Shown here: positions 38,111 to 49,467 of the stretch, one piece after another
How the letters are laid out: every line of letters starts with the position of its first letter
Numbering within the stretch: position 1 is the first letter of the stretch
Assembly: GCA_001045525.1 (NCBI GenBank)
Contig: LDWW01000007.1
Span: 1-64,000 of the forward strand
DNA from: Chitinispirillum alkaliphilum
GTDB taxonomy: Bacteria > Fibrobacterota > Chitinivibrionia > Chitinivibrionales > Chitinispirillaceae
Direction of reading: 5' to 3'
DNA length: 64,000 nucleotides
Position numbers and translations under genes: made by a program
Notes under the pieces: model-generated
Database searches by the model: none
The model's input: only the letters and a program-made list of their open reading frames with translations
What the model was told of the DNA's origin: nothing

Positions 38111-38695
38111 TTACTCCAGAGGTTCTTTCATTGCACGGTTTATTCCTTCACGGCTGAAAGATATCGAATGTACAAAAACCTCTTCTGCGGTGTTGGTGAG
38201 GATCTCCTCTCCGTAGTACTCTCTCAGCTTGAATTTTCTCAGTATGAAACGATTGGGTTCCAGAAGAGTACCTTCTGCGTTAAGCATGAATTTCCCTTTC
38301 TCACCACTGTGAAGAGTCACTTTGGAGCCGAAATCATAGATATAATCGATACTGTCCAGAGTGATCCTTTTTTCCCCGTTTTCATTCACTATCATCATAT
38401 GAGGATAGCAGTCGACTCTTCCCAATCTCGAATAACCGCTTCCAGCAACATAGCCGCTTGACATGATCTGAACATCCATACTGGTCTTAACTGTCACCTC
38501 ACCTTCCCCGGGAAATCTTCGGTCGAGATCCACTTCATGAAATCCCAGGTAAAGTGTCCAGAACCGTGCCTCTCCTGTGGTATTTTCAACTGTACCATAC
38601 CACATTTTTCTCTCGATTATGGAACGTGCAGGAGTTGAAACTGCTGCTAAAACCAAAAAAGTTAAAACCGATGCCAAAAATGCTTTCCTGTTCAT
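38111..38695 (-). CDS. Uncharacterised exported protein
   Basis: 194 residues. Signal peptide with cleavage near ARS (residues 22-25). The remainder is soluble and beta-rich (WYGTVENTTGEARFWTLYLG). No family recognised. It is a single-gene unit: terminator 34 nt after the stop and a 160-nt gap to the kinase gene upstream. Confidence 0.7.
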   Translation of the reverse strand: MNRKAFLASVLTFLVLAAVSTPARSIIERKMWYGTVENTTGEARFWTLYLGFHEVDLDRRFPGEGEVTVKTSMDVQIMSSGYVAGSGYSRLGRVDCYPHMMIVNENGEKRITLDSIDYIYDFGSKVTLHSGEKGKFMLNAEGTLLEPNRFILRKFKLREYYGEEILTNTAEEVFVHSISFSREGINRAMKEPLE

Positions 38696-38856: not shown

Positions 38857-41157
38857 TTACTCTTCAAAATTCTTCTCCCTTTCCCCTGCGTCCTCCTCTT
38901 CTTTCTCTTTAATGAGCGCGGGGAAATACAGTTGGATCGATGTTCCACTGCCCGGCTCTGAGTCTATGGTGATCTGTCCCCCATGATTGCGAATGGTGGA
39001 ATATGCCATTGTAAGCCCCAGCCCTACATTGTTCTCCCTGGTGGTAAAATATGGATCAAATATTCTGGTCAAGATATCAGAGGGGATTCCCGGTCCGTTA
39101 TCACTTATGATTACCTTTACCCAGGGGGGGCCAGCAGTTCCCTGAAGGAGCGGGTTAGTTTCATCGTTATAATTAGAGGCGGAAATTGTCACCGTCCCTC
39201 CCAGGGGCATAGCCTGATCGGCATTCAGTATTATATTGTTTAACACCTGATCGATCTGTCCTCTGTCTACCTCAACTTCATACAGATCATCATCGATCTG
39301 GAGATTATACTCAGAATCGAGGCCATTCATATAATATCCAACAGAATTCTCGATTAGCTCTTTAAGTGAGGTGATTTCTCTTTCTGGCATTCCACTCCTG
39401 GCAAACGTTAAGAGCTGATTGATAAGACCCGAGGCATTGAAGGCCGCCTTCTCAGCAGCAGTTATCAGCTGGCTTGTTTCAGAAGAGATATCGAGCCCGA
39501 TCTTGGCCATGAAAAGATTGGTGATTATACCCGACAAAAGAGTACTGAACTCATTTGCAATACCACTTGCCAGTATGCTCAGAGATTCCAGTTTTCGTGA
39601 TTTGAATAACTCCTCTTCTATTTTTTTCCTGTCTGTTATATCACTGAAAACTATCACACTGCCATAGTATTCACCCGTTGGGTCGTTTATGGGAGAACTG
39701 GTTTCAGAGATCGTTTTGACCATACCAGCCTGTTTGGAATGAATTTCATACGACTTGAAGATGAAATCTGTAGAATCTGATTTGTTTTCAGGATAATGCC
39801 TGACCCTCTCTCCTTTTGTGATCTCATACACCTCATACACTTCCCGCAGATGCCTTCCGCACGCCTCAGAGATCTCAACCCCGGTCATTTCTGCCGCTGC
39901 ATCGTTAAAAAGCATAATCATTCCATCTTTATCGGTCGCTATAACCCCATCTCTTATCGAGCGAAGCGTGACAGAGAGTTTATCCTGTTCAGCTTTAAGA
40001 TGACGCTCAGCCCGAATCCGTTCATGATTTTCAAGCCTTAACTTACTGTTAACTTCGGTCAGTTCTGCGGTACGCTCCTCTACTTTCTGTTCAAGCTCCT
40101 CCCTTGCACTCTGAAGAGAAATGTTGGCACTTTCAATCTCTGTAATGTCTCTTATCACAAAGGCACAGCCGCGTGGTTTACCCCTATTATCGAGCAATAC
40201 AGACCAGGACACAAGTGCCGGAAACAGTTTGCCGTCCGATTTCTTTAACCTGGTCTTCATCTCCACACAGCTTTTGTGGCCATGATTCTCAATTGAGTCG
40301 ATATCATGAAGGAAATCAAGCACAGCTGAGCCATGTTTTCCCAAAAGATCTGCTTTGCACATTTCCACCATCGACATAAGCATAGGGTTAATGATCTCAA
40401 TTTTCATGCGTTTGTTTAAAACCATGACTCCCTCGGACATAGTTTCAATCACTGCTGAGGCAACCAGGCCGGGGCTGATGGAGAAAAGCTTTTCGCTGTT
40501 GACTGCATGCCCGATTATCACAGCCATCACTGCAAATGAGATGTTTATAAGCTCAGGTATTCTGATTGAAAAAAGCGGTATCAGCAGCTCACTAAAAAAT
40601 CCCAGAATAAAGGGGATTGATACGGCTATAAGCACATACCCGACACGTCTCTTTTCTTCAGGGACCTTTTGAGACCGATAATAGATTGTAAGCATTACAA
40701 TTACAAGAATGCTTACCGCAGCTCCAAGAAAAGTGATAATATCTATGACAACATTATCAGCACGCGCATAGGTCCATCCCCAATAGCTTGCTACGAGAAC
40801 AGGAGTGTGGAAAAACTGCTTTGCCAAAATGATTAACAGTGCGGGGAAATAAACTAACCAGCCCAGTAATTTTGGTTTTCGGGACAGAGAGTTTTTAGTG
40901 TAAGCGAGTGTAAAATGAAGAAGCAATGCGATCGAAAGGGGCCACACGACTCTGAATGAATAGTAAAAATATGCTCTTTCAATGCTTTCTGACTGCCTGA
41001 GCAGAAATTCGATAAACGACCAGTAGGCAAAGGAAATGCACAGCAAAGAGAATATCCGGTTAAGTTTTTCTTTGCTGTTTCTGTGGAACACCAAGCATGC
41101 CACAGCGGTACACAAAACAGAGGAGAATAAAGACAATAAAGCAAAAACGCTTACCAT
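38857..41157 (-). CDS. Multi-PAS sensor kinase with Asn in place of the phosphoacceptor His
   Basis: 766 residues. Residues 1-215 hold about seven membrane helices (7TM histidine-kinase sensor type). Then PAS (about 240-350), coiled coil (355-400), PAS (about 400-520) and an HATPase domain (about 630-750). N box NNIILNADQAM, G1 DNGPGIP, F FDPYFTT and G2 GLGLTMAYS are intact. The H box, normally LAxGIAHDFNNLL, reads LASGIANEFSTLL: residue 535 is Asn (codon at 39555-39553). So ATP binding looks normal but autophosphorylation at the usual site is not possible. No response regulator is adjacent. It may be a pseudokinase partner of another kinase. Confidence 0.88.
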   Translation of the reverse strand: MVSVFALLSLFSSVLCTAVACLVFHRNSKEKLNRIFSLLCISFAYWSFIEFLLRQSESIERAYFYYSFRVVWPLSIALLLHFTLAYTKNSLSRKPKLLGWLVYFPALLIILAKQFFHTPVLVASYWGWTYARADNVVIDIITFLGAAVSILVIVMLTIYYRSQKVPEEKRRVGYVLIAVSIPFILGFFSELLIPLFSIRIPELINISFAVMAVIIGHAVNSEKLFSISPGLVASAVIETMSEGVMVLNKRMKIEIINPMLMSMVEMCKADLLGKHGSAVLDFLHDIDSIENHGHKSCVEMKTRLKKSDGKLFPALVSWSVLLDNRGKPRGCAFVIRDITEIESANISLQSAREELEQKVEERTAELTEVNSKLRLENHERIRAERHLKAEQDKLSVTLRSIRDGVIATDKDGMIMLFNDAAAEMTGVEISEACGRHLREVYEVYEITKGERVRHYPENKSDSTDFIFKSYEIHSKQAGMVKTISETSSPINDPTGEYYGSVIVFSDITDRKKIEEELFKSRKLESLSILASGIANEFSTLLSGIITNLFMAKIGLDISSETSQLITAAEKAAFNASGLINQLLTFARSGMPEREITSLKELIENSVGYYMNGLDSEYNLQIDDDLYEVEVDRGQIDQVLNNIILNADQAMPLGGTVTISASNYNDETNPLLQGTAGPPWVKVIISDNGPGIPSDILTRIFDPYFTTRENNVGLGLTMAYSTIRNHGGQITIDSEPGSGTSIQLYFPALIKEKEEEDAGEREKNFEE

Positions 41158-42175: not shown

Positions 42176-43798
42176 ATGACAGATCAGTTTAAACCTACTA
42201 TCTCTGTAATCATTGTTAATTATAAGGTTCCCGAAAGTCTTTGCGAAGCACTCAAATCACTTCGGGAAACTCAGCTTTACGATCAATGCGAAATAATTGT
42301 CGTTGATAATGCCTCTAAAGACAACTCCCGGTCTCTTATTACCGAAACATTTCCCGAAGTACAGTGGATTCAGCTTAAAAACAATATCGGGTTTGGGAAA
42401 GCCTGCAATGCAGGAGCGCGTCAGGCCAGGGGAGAATTTCTCCTGCTGCTTAACCCCGATACAATGGTTTCGAAAAACATCCTTGTCAGATGTATTGATT
42501 TCATACGCAAAAAACCCAATGTCGGCATGATCGGACCCAAAATCCTCAATCCCGACGGATCTCTTCAGGCAAGCTGCAGAAGATCCTTTCCTACTCCTTC
42601 GGCGGCATTGTTTTATTTCAGCGGACTGAGCAGACTTTTTCCCAAAAGCAGAAGACTGGGGCAGTACAATCTCACCTATATGAATGATAATGAGTCAGCG
42701 GAAGTTGATGCCATTTCCGGCTCTTTTATGTTTATGCCACTTTCTGTATTCCGGGAGGTGGAAGGGTTTGATGAACGATTTTTCATGTATGGTGAAGATA
42801 TTGATCTTTGCTGGCGCATAAGAAAAAAAGGGTACACTATCTGGTACCATCCCGATATCCAAATCATCCACACAAAAGGGAAAAGTTCCACCAAAAGAAT
42901 TATCAGATCCCGTATCGCATTCTATGAAGCCATGATTATCTTCACCAAGAAATACCGGGCACATCACGAAGGATTTTTTCCTAAATGGTTTATCTTTTTC
43001 GGTATCGTTTTGCAGGCTTCATTCAATATTGGCGCAATCCTTCTTAAAACTGCAACTGCAGCCATAACTGATACAATCCTCGCAAACAGCGCTCTATTTG
43101 CAGTAATCACAGCAACAAGCATGATTAATAATGAGCCATCCCCTTATATAGGGGATTCACTGCTAAAACTGGTTGTCGCTCACCTTATGCTGACAAGCTG
43201 TTTTATATTCTCATTTCTGTACAATGGTATCTATTCACGGAAACACTACACTCCGAAAAACGGACTGCTCTCTGGAGTCCTGGCCTCCGCTCTTTTTCTC
43301 TCCCTGGTTTTTGGGGCACGGATAAATGTCATTCCTTATCAGAGATATGGTATCACGCTGCTTTTTACCTCTTTGCTTATGGTGGGATGGAGAGAGACTC
43401 TTCCCAGGTTTCTTAGCCGGCTTAAAAGAATGATTTTCACTCCGTCCAAGATAATTATTATCGGGGATGGACCAGTGACATCAAAACTAATCACAAATTT
43501 CGAGCAAAAAAAAGAGTACACAATACTTGGTATCGTACACGATCTCCATGAAAAGAATGACGCCTCGGTCGATGGATATCCGATTCTTGGATCGGTTCAC
43601 AATCTAAAGAGCATTTTGGAACAACACAACATAGACACCATAATTGTTGCCACCCAACACCCCTGGTATTCACACATCATAGAAAATATCGCGGGAACAA
43701 ACAGGAGAAATTTCGACATTCGCTGGGTACCCCAACATATCTTCCCACAGAATGGTGAAAACATTCCCCAGACAATCCCCCTGTACAGTTTTTCCTGA
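42176..43798 (+). CDS. GT2 glycosyltransferase fused to a membrane/nucleotide-binding module
   Basis: 540 residues. Residues 1-275 are a rhamnosyltransferase-like GT2 domain (VIIVNYKVPESL, LLNPDTMVS as the DxD equivalent, FFMYGEDIDLCWR). Then four hydrophobic segments (about 285-400) and a Rossmann-like part (IIIIGDGPVTSKLI to the end) resembling the N-terminal half of WbaP/WcaJ-type initiating phosphotransferases. The catalytic phosphotransferase domain that normally follows is absent. Probably acts in O-antigen or capsule assembly. Confidence 0.78.
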   Translation: MTDQFKPTISVIIVNYKVPESLCEALKSLRETQLYDQCEIIVVDNASKDNSRSLITETFPEVQWIQLKNNIGFGKACNAGARQARGEFLLLLNPDTMVSKNILVRCIDFIRKKPNVGMIGPKILNPDGSLQASCRRSFPTPSAALFYFSGLSRLFPKSRRLGQYNLTYMNDNESAEVDAISGSFMFMPLSVFREVEGFDERFFMYGEDIDLCWRIRKKGYTIWYHPDIQIIHTKGKSSTKRIIRSRIAFYEAMIIFTKKYRAHHEGFFPKWFIFFGIVLQASFNIGAILLKTATAAITDTILANSALFAVITATSMINNEPSPYIGDSLLKLVVAHLMLTSCFIFSFLYNGIYSRKHYTPKNGLLSGVLASALFLSLVFGARINVIPYQRYGITLLFTSLLMVGWRETLPRFLSRLKRMIFTPSKIIIIGDGPVTSKLITNFEQKKEYTILGIVHDLHEKNDASVDGYPILGSVHNLKSILEQHNIDTIIVATQHPWYSHIIENIAGTNRRNFDIRWVPQHIFPQNGENIPQTIPLYSFS

Positions 43799-47066: not shown

Positions 47067-47105
47067 AAAGCCGCTTCGCCCTGAAGGCAAAGCGGCTTTC
47101 TTTTT
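47067..47105 (+). terminator. Terminator after tRNA-Ser
   Basis: AAAGCCGCTT (47067-47076) pairs with AAGCGGCTTT (47090-47099), followed by CTTTTT. It lies 10 nt past the tRNA and overlaps the end of the convergent transporter gene. Confidence 0.8.
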
Positions 47106-49467
47106 ATGATAGCAGATCCGCTTCACCTGTTGAATAGATGAACAGAGTGGTGGGTAATTTTTCCAATAATGCCCCGACTGAACTTTGAAACTGCCCCGCA
47201 TACTGCTCTTCCGGTAAACTCAGCCCCAGAAACACTACAGTAGCATCTGAGGAGTACTCGTATAATAAATCGCTGAATTTTTTCCCCGAGAAAACTATCT
47301 CAATATCTGCATCTATTCTGGCCGCATCTATAAGCCTTTTCATCTCGCTGTAGGATTCACTTTTTTGAGAGATCTCTGTTACCACACGCAATATCCTTAT
47401 CTGTGCCCCAGACCATTCAGGATTCAACGTTAAAAGATAGGCCAGAATGACCATAAGGGAACCGTTTTGCTCACCTCTCCACCATATATCAATGCGCTTT
47501 CTTCCTTTATCAGGCAATCCGTTGTCGTGAACCAACACAACACTCATATCAAGCATTGCTGCAGTTTTAAGAGAACGCAGATAACCTGCGGCTCGGGAAG
47601 GATCCCCCGACCAGCCAAACAGTGCCAGGTTGGGTTTGATAGGACCAATCGAGGTTGATTGTAAAAACATGTTCAGGCCCTGATCAAAATCCCGCGTTAT
47701 CAGCACTTCAGGAAAAGCCCTTATTTTGTGTTCTTTAACAAAAGTGTCAAGTTTTGAGATTGTTGCGGTACGCTCTTCAAGCATGTTATCAAGCTTTCCC
47801 TGCTGAAGCAAAGCCATGGTCACTATACCTCTTCCGCTGCTGAGCCAGTCTGCATATTTTACCAGAGTGAGTCTGCGCTTGGGGTTACCCGAGAGCACAA
47901 CAATCGTGGGTCGCCAGTTCTTGGAGTGAACGGGAAGCTGTGAGAGCCTGAAAAGATGATCCCTTGTTCTGCTGTATACAAAGCCACGTCTGGCATCCCC
48001 AAATGATGCTTCCATGATAAATCTTTTTACATAGAGAAAAATAGAGAAAACAAGAAATGTGGCTGCAACAGCGACCGGTGCATCTACAAGAAATGAAACC
48101 GCAAAGCTTGCCCCTGCTCCTATAAGTGCAGGAAACCAGTGGAAAAACTTGAACCTTGGTCTGAATGAAGGGTTTTTGGTAAATGACTCCACAAATGCCG
48201 CGAGATTGGTTATACCGTACGTCCAAAGAAAAAGCATAGTTACCAAAGATGCAACTATATTGAATGCTTCCCCGTCACCTCCGTTCCTTGCAAGATAGAT
48301 CACCAGAAAGCTTATGGCAAAAGTCAGATAAAGCGCTCTTCTTGGTTCTCCGTTTTTTCCAAGGTGGGAAAATGGTGAAGCGGGTTTAAGGATTTTGTCC
48401 TGACCCAGGGACTGCAGGACCCTCGGAGCTCCAAGCAGTGACCCGATTGCACTTGAAATTGTGGCACAAAAAACCCCGCCAATAACTAAGAATCCGCTAA
48501 AAAGGGGAGCTATGGACACAAGGCTATGAAAGGGGGAATTTATCAGATCATTTCTTGAAATGGCTCCTCCTACCAAAATAACCTGAGCCGCATATATGAA
48601 AAATCCTGCTCCTATTGCGAACAGTGTCCCCATCGGAATAGATCTGGAGGGGTTTTTGAGATCCCCTGACATATTGACTCCGGCCATTATTCCTGTCACT
48701 GCAGGAAAATATATGGCAAACAGCGCCCAGAATGAGAACTGGATCTCCTGTGGAGCACGTAAATTATTTCTTAACAGAGTTATATCGAAATTAAGAGCAG
48801 CTCCCCCAATAAATGCAAGGATAGCGAGCCCGAGAATGGCCATAATTGCATACTGAGCCTTTATCGCCCAACCTGCACCGATATACGCTATACTAAACAG
48901 AAATAGCAGTGTTACAATTGCGATCAGTCCGAAATAGGGCTGAAGCGGTGGGATAAAGGCAAAACTGTCTGCAGTGAAAATAAGGGCTTCGGTGAAACCA
49001 AGAATATAAAACGGAACAGAGAGGGTTTGAGCAAGATACAGGGTGAGCCCGATGGTGCCCCCGAATTCAGGTCCCATAGTTCTTGAGATGAGATAGTAGG
49101 CTCCCCCTCCCTTTACCTCGGTGTTGGTTGCAATTGCTGAGATGGATAATCCTGTGAGCGCACTGATTGTTTTGGAAAGGATAAGAATAAGAAGTGTTGC
49201 GATAATGCCGGCATGCCCAATCACAAATCCGGCACGCATGAACATGATCACACCAAGGATGGTAAGTATGGAAGGGGTAAATACCCCACCAAAGGTGGAG
49301 AACTTATTCAGACCAGACTCTGCAATGGGGTCTGCTGTCTTGGCAGATTTTTCTTTGACTGGTGCTAAAGAGGATCTGCTGAGCTGATTTTGATTTCGAG
49401 TGGTAATTTGCCCTTCTCCATCAAGGTATGTTTTTCTCCTGCACCTGAATTCTTTTATCCAACTCAA
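47104..49467 (-). CDS. SLC12-like cation-chloride cotransporter (APC superfamily)
   Basis: 787 residues. Twelve hydrophobic helices between about 60 and 480, opening with KFSTFGGVFTPSILTILGVI and MFMRAGFVIG, the signature start of SLC12/NKCC-KCC transporters; TGIMAGVNMSGDLKNPSRSIP is the diagnostic family block. The C-terminal 300 residues are a soluble domain with SLC12-type pattern. Likely couples K+ and/or Na+ with Cl- transport. The start is uncertain: the only early candidate is a TTG at 49467, overlapping the citrate synthase gene by 47 nt, with no clear ribosome site. Confidence 0.85.
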   Translation of the reverse strand: MSWIKEFRCRRKTYLDGEGQITTRNQNQLSRSSLAPVKEKSAKTADPIAESGLNKFSTFGGVFTPSILTILGVIMFMRAGFVIGHAGIIATLLILILSKTISALTGLSISAIATNTEVKGGGAYYLISRTMGPEFGGTIGLTLYLAQTLSVPFYILGFTEALIFTADSFAFIPPLQPYFGLIAIVTLLFLFSIAYIGAGWAIKAQYAIMAILGLAILAFIGGAALNFDITLLRNNLRAPQEIQFSFWALFAIYFPAVTGIMAGVNMSGDLKNPSRSIPMGTLFAIGAGFFIYAAQVILVGGAISRNDLINSPFHSLVSIAPLFSGFLVIGGVFCATISSAIGSLLGAPRVLQSLGQDKILKPASPFSHLGKNGEPRRALYLTFAISFLVIYLARNGGDGEAFNIVASLVTMLFLWTYGITNLAAFVESFTKNPSFRPRFKFFHWFPALIGAGASFAVSFLVDAPVAVAATFLVFSIFLYVKRFIMEASFGDARRGFVYSRTRDHLFRLSQLPVHSKNWRPTIVVLSGNPKRRLTLVKYADWLSSGRGIVTMALLQQGKLDNMLEERTATISKLDTFVKEHKIRAFPEVLITRDFDQGLNMFLQSTSIGPIKPNLALFGWSGDPSRAAGYLRSLKTAAMLDMSVVLVHDNGLPDKGRKRIDIWWRGEQNGSLMVILAYLLTLNPEWSGAQIRILRVVTEISQKSESYSEMKRLIDAARIDADIEIVFSGKKFSDLLYEYSSDATVVFLGLSLPEEQYAGQFQSSVGALLEKLPTTLFIYSTGEADLLS

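Follow-up and report, generated by a model that had tools for sequence, protein, structure and literature searches.

Can a sensor kinase that carries asparagine in place of its phosphoacceptor histidine still serve a function, and from what kind of protein did it descend? This question is raised by a gene on the minus strand (38857..41157) of the window, which is the whole stretch of 64,000 nucleotides of Chitinispirillum alkaliphilum DNA analyzed here. Its open reading frame, Pfam matches, and orthologue alignment define a protein of 766 residues with the domain order 7TM-PAS-PAS-DHp-CA and without a receiver. The original prediction described a pseudo-histidine kinase with a retained ATPase domain, which might signal by heterodimerization or by phosphorylating another site. 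The orthologues and the conserved boxes bear out the first part, and it is highly probable that the 766-residue protein is a fixed pseudo-histidine kinase.

Domain architecture and the phosphoacceptor position

All Pfam matches of the protein are above the cut-offs, and the 7TM sensor and the two PAS domains are kept as originally described. The HisKA_7TM sensor domain (PF16927, E=6e-15) covers residues 10–229 (40471..41130; all features of this gene are on the minus strand), and the first PAS domain (PF13426) covers residues 242–340 (40138..40434). A coiled-coil signaling helix, recognized from the orthologue alignment, spans residues 341–390 (39988..40137) and is followed by the second PAS domain (PF00989, E=2e-17) at residues 395–507 (39637..39975). 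The DHp domain, residues 508–598 (39364..39636), was delimited from the sequence and the predicted structure; Pfam gave no HisKA match in this protein. The CA domain (HATPase_c, PF02518, E=8e-21) occupies residues 631–747 (38917..39267) with the N (634–650), G1 (684–692), F (699–706), and G2 (710–719) boxes intact and matching those of histidine-bearing orthologues, in agreement with what had been read from the gene itself. The C-terminal end with its short acidic tail (38860..38931) lies where, according to the orthologue alignment and Pfam, the histidine-bearing orthologues run on into a receiver.

The phosphoacceptor position is occupied by Asn535 (codon AAT, 39553..39555), which sits within LASGIANEFSTLLSG in an H-box region reading LESLSILASGIANEFSTLLSGI. 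Asn535 aligns with the phosphoacceptor histidine of the solved kinases ZraS, CckA, FixL, and ThkA, and in an alignment of 19 sequences (the window protein and 18 relatives from unrelated genomes) its column is histidine in at least 90% of the rows, confirming the predicted substitution. The protein thus differs from canonical HisKA sensor and hybrid kinases in having no phosphoacceptor histidine in the H box, and from its hybrid-type histidine-bearing orthologues in having no receiver domain. We searched it for a substitute acceptor and found no histidine between residues 473 and 725, and hence none in DHp, so another histidine nearby does not take over the role. Pseudo-histidine kinases are proteins that have lost at least one function of a histidine kinase, and this one has neither the acceptor nor any other histidine in DHp. 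A further mark of the class is maintenance as part of a signaling network; of this, the maintenance is shown by domain conservation, the tree, and dN (below), whereas the network partner is a matter of candidates. His386 (codon 40000–40002), in the coiled-coil helix, is the only histidine present in all three non-histidine orthologues and in none of the three histidine-bearing ones. Asparagine cannot take the phosphate, and serine is found at this position in one species only. As judged from the sequences, the H box can no longer be autophosphorylated.

An AlphaFold2 model of residues 383–766 (mean pLDDT 76.7) shows DHp with moderate confidence as a helical hairpin with long helices at model residues 126–170 and 178–205, and places Asn535 (model residue 153) within the first DHp helix. 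Much of the CA domain is modeled near pLDDT 90. Both the DHp hairpin and the CA domain are predicted to be folded. Fold matches of the model in the PDB include HisKA kinases such as ZraS and CckA, as well as DivL and the NifL-NifA complex (9qq6); the overall TM-scores are modest because the orientation of the domains is uncertain.

Orthologues and the loss of histidine and receiver

The order was sampled with 40 genomes, and full-length relatives were found in five of them: G001 (same genus, 62% identity), G006 (same family, 51%), and G008, G003, and G005 (about 40%). Widening the search to 168 genomes of the phylum gave no further full-length orthologue. In all five orthologue genomes, the kinase gene is adjoined by the divergently oriented glycosyltransferase genes seen in the window, the first of the pair being missing in G003. 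In the window, the gene at 42176-43798 (+) encodes 540 residues with a family 2 glycosyltransferase fused to a CoA_binding_3 domain; it is found on the diverging side of the kinase gene here and in G001, G006, G003, and G005. Elsewhere in the window, a 787-residue transporter (47104-49467, −) with AA_permease and SLC12 (cation-chloride cotransporter-like) C-terminal matches looks unusual for a bacterium.

At position 535, the window protein has asparagine (AAT), G001 serine (AGT), and G006 asparagine (AAC), whereas G008, G003, and G005 all have histidine encoded by CAT. Close orthologues therefore do not carry histidine. A single C-to-A change, as originally proposed, followed by A-to-G in G001 would suffice for these codons. 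Features that the original prediction had missed extend beyond this residue: the changes at H+1 and H+4 (HDFNN to NEFST), a retained threonine at H+4, and the loss of the C-terminal receiver. The histidine-bearing orthologues read HDFNN or HDFND and the three others NEFST or SEFST, so that H+1, H+3, and H+4 have all changed, and the acidic residue at H+1 together with threonine at H+4 (EFST) is fixed across the three non-histidine proteins. The H+4 residue, Thr539 in the window protein (39541..39543), is threonine in 3/3 non-histidine orthologues and asparagine or aspartate in the histidine-bearing ones. One base is enough to turn CAT into AAT, and a sequencing or assembly error might be suspected; however, histidine is absent from three separate assemblies with three different codons, H+1, H+3, and H+4 have changed along with it, and the loss of the receiver is shared, which makes such an error extremely improbable.

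The histidine-bearing orthologues run on for about 140 more residues into a receiver whose aspartate lies in a DLT motif, whereas the three non-histidine proteins end 15–19 residues past CA. Pfam recognized Response_reg in G008 and G028 and did not in the window protein, G001, G006, and G025_N, a kinase of another family described below. The histidine-bearing 7TM-PAS-PAS-HisKA-REC hybrid kinases of G008, G003, and G005 belong to the same family as the window protein and share its locus, domains, docking helix, and CA boxes; they differ from it in the acceptor histidine, aspartate at H+1, and the C-terminal receiver with its aspartate. We looked for a free-standing receiver that might have been split from the ancestral protein and found none. 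No receiver-like match lay near the kinase gene among the matches listed for the window genome, G001, and G006. In the window genome, the receivers most similar to the lost one are within the hybrid kinases C4 (38%) and C1 (40%), which are candidate targets and do not count as evidence.

We built a tree of 40 DHp-CA sequences chosen by similarity to the window protein. The three non-histidine proteins form a clade (support 100/100) with a stem branch of 0.49 followed by ordinary tip lengths, for three species only. This clade is nested in a six-member orthologue clade (100/99), the other members of which all have both the histidine and the receiver, and therefore histidine and receiver were lost from a hybrid kinase in this lineage. 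The simplest history, on these sequences, would be a loss of both on one branch, in an ancestor shared by at least three species.

Within the non-histidine clade, DHp (67–86% identity) and CA (65–73%) are the best-conserved folded domains, ahead of both PAS domains (46–61%) and 7TM (38–48%), a pattern broadly as among the histidine-bearing orthologues. LLxGIITNLFMAK, the docking stretch that follows the site, is almost identical to that of the histidine-bearing orthologues. dN is 0.10–0.25 for DHp and 0.20–0.28 for CA, while third bases of 4-fold sites are largely randomized and synonymous sites are near saturation; proper dN/dS ratios were rejected because the synonymous sites were too saturated for most estimates. 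From these sequence comparisons, DHp and CA of the non-histidine clade are under purifying selection and not in decay, in keeping with the original view that this gene is not simply decaying. One might still think of a relic in which the kinase became useless, histidine and receiver were lost, and the remainder has been drifting; the long stem branch and the fast divergence of the sensor domains would fit such a view. Yet decay is very unlikely: the frame stays open in three genomes at identities down to 51%, with intact boxes in DHp and CA, low dN where synonymous sites are saturated, a fixed EFST motif, and a conserved gene order.

What a kinase-dead sensor might do

A plausible function, which we put forward tentatively and at somewhat less than even chance, is that of a sensor-gated phosphatase acting on a receiver in trans and derived from a hybrid kinase of the 7TM-PAS-PAS-DHp-CA-REC type. 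The ancestral hybrid kinase lost the phosphoacceptor histidine and its own receiver before at least three species diverged, and its descendants retain the DHp dimerization and docking domain and the CA domain with all its ATP-binding boxes. In the proposed scheme, the 7TM and PAS domains would sense a signal and toggle DHp-CA between states, in one of which DHp might dock a phosphorylated receiver belonging to another protein. With ATP on CA as a cofactor and Thr539 at H+4, the phosphate would then be removed from that receiver. A sensor-gated phosphatase would explain the retention of both EFST and the ATP site, and the docking helix, which hardly differs from that of the histidine-bearing orthologues, argues for continued docking of a receiver, now one in trans.

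Threonine or asparagine at H+4 governs phosphatase activity in HisKA kinases (PMC8292422), and the non-histidine proteins stay in this class. Thr539 falls within the phosphatase-competent residues (Thr/Asn/Glu), the activity itself being predicted from the sequence. HisKA phosphatase activity can do without the acceptor histidine, although this residue contributes to it (PMC12632262). A natural precedent is DrBphP of Deinococcus radiodurans, a kinase-dead HisKA-type sensor that removes phosphate from its regulator in a reaction needing ATP and governed by H+4 (PMC8292422), the role predicted for the window protein; an analogous need for ATP would explain why CA is retained here. DrBphP differs from the window protein in that it is a phytochrome, keeps its histidine (H532), has glutamate at H+4, and has a known partner, DrRR. 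Threonine in place of its native H+4 residue abolished the activity of DrBphP (PMC8292422), and given the change from asparagine to threonine in our lineage, the motif alone is no proof of activity. Phosphatase activity has also been argued, from frequencies, to be unlikely as a general function of pseudo-histidine kinases (PMC12632262). Two further observations count against the phosphatase reading, by comparison of sequences and by analogy, respectively: G025_N has valine at H+4, and DivL has neither kinase nor phosphatase activity.

DivL represents another possibility, to which we give appreciable but lesser weight, namely that the non-catalytic DHp-CA core of the window protein serves as an allosteric binder of a receiver, a kinase, or a transcription activator, the sensor domains controlling the binding. 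DivL of Caulobacter crescentus, with tyrosine at the site and without kinase or phosphatase activity, regulates CckA and uses a conserved RR docking face to bind DivK~P (PMC4211667). The window protein keeps a conserved docking face, and DivL and NifL-NifA are among the fold matches of its predicted structure. DivL also consists of PAS, DHp, and CA with the histidine replaced and no receiver; this likeness extends over PAS-DHp-CA and is not a claim of orthology. DivL has tyrosine where the window clade has Asn/Ser/Asn, and its partners DivK and CckA belong to Alphaproteobacteria. DivL binds an ATP analogue weakly (PMC4211667), whereas all CA boxes are intact here, and EFST, fixed in three species, has no obvious need in a pure binder.

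NifL is a PAS-DHp-CA protein that signals by protein contact and not by phosphotransfer. It resembles the window protein in its PAS-DHp-CA arrangement and possibly in mechanism; it differs in being soluble and acting on NifA, and no NifA-like activator was seen beside the window gene.

The retained threonine at H+4 makes a phosphatase or receiver-binding role likelier than phosphorylation of another site, one of the two modes of signaling originally suggested. The other mode, heterodimerization, would require that the intact CA domain phosphorylates the histidine of a canonical kinase or that the pseudo-subunit gates that kinase. The intact CA boxes would suit such a pairing, and there is a precedent in Corynebacterium glutamicum, where native ChrS pairs with its paralogue HrrS and a kinase-dead ChrS variant alters HrrS signaling (PMC9491836). 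However, no second 7TM paralogue was found among the examined kinases of the window genome, and the closest DHp paralogue, the hybrid kinase C1 without a 7TM domain, is 43% identical, compared with 68% for the histidine-bearing orthologue in another genus. Nor was a second kinase gene similar to this one seen in the examined neighborhoods of the six species. Pairing with a close paralogue is thus disfavored, and we regard heterodimerization as unlikely. C1 did not stand out as an obvious clade-specific partner, since its family is large, with many copies across the order.

The downstream gene (38111-38695, −) encodes 194 residues with a signal-like N-terminus and no Pfam match and belongs to an uncharacterized order-wide family. 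As a dedicated partner of the kinase it was rejected, being present as a single copy in 33 of the 40 genomes, mostly on contigs away from this kinase.

Other non-histidine kinases in the order

Phosphorylatable histidine is missing in 722 of 76,471 HisKA domains (about 0.9%), a figure of Collins and Childers as quoted in PMC12632262, and pseudo-histidine kinases are a recognized class of histidine-kinase homologues without this residue. In the 40 genomes of the order, a summed per-genome table gave 260 GIAH[DE]F sites against 9 GIAN[DE]F sites, and four of the latter lie within kinase genes, in the window, G006, G005, and G025, so that the motif is rare and not unique. The matches in G024, G031, G032, and G037 are not kinases and belong to a repeat protein, a diaminopimelate epimerase-like protein, and tiny frames, and a motif match in G052 lies in a frame of 25 residues.

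The kinase from G025 (G025_N; G025:C35, locus L139:10479-13208, −) is of another family with 7TM, three PAS domains, DHp with GIANDFSVIL, CA, and no receiver. It is encoded at a locus different from that of the window kinase and lies outside the window clade in the free tree. Grouping it with that clade was rejected as being against the free tree: forcing it there cost 15.7 log units with p-AU 0.067, which favors separate origins and is not proof. G025_N has probably, as far as these sequences tell, lost its histidine and receiver independently. The kinase from G005 (G005:C341, locus L102:1063-2619, +) is a hybrid kinase of 518 residues with GIANDFNN, which has lost the histidine but kept aspartate at H+1, asparagine at H+4, and the receiver. 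In the tree set, every histidine-bearing row has a receiver-like tail, which is absent from two of the three non-histidine lineages; the probability of this association by chance would be about 0.004 if the lineages are independent, an exploratory value, since similarity to the window protein had determined which sequences entered the set. It might be, although we consider it rather doubtful, that hybrid kinases of this order repeatedly become receiver-less, kinase-dead, sensor-gated phosphatases or binders through the loss of the acceptor histidine and the cis receiver, with the DHp-CA core remaining under selection.

Pseudo-histidine kinases are already established, and what this case adds is a syntenic, tree-placed transition from a hybrid kinase to a receiver-less pseudo-kinase. 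Compared with the class in general, the window protein has orthologues at the same locus that bear both the histidine and the receiver, so that a tree can locate its loss of histidine and link it to the loss of the receiver. Few pseudo-histidine kinases have a known ancestor, and the same locus in the relatives allows a comparison of before and after. It lets one ask whether a bifunctional kinase, on losing its histidine, becomes a pure binder or a dedicated phosphatase, and why the ATP-binding domain persists when the protein can no longer autophosphorylate. Repeated conversion in the order, if true, would provide a traceable evolutionary path to a one-way two-component regulator.
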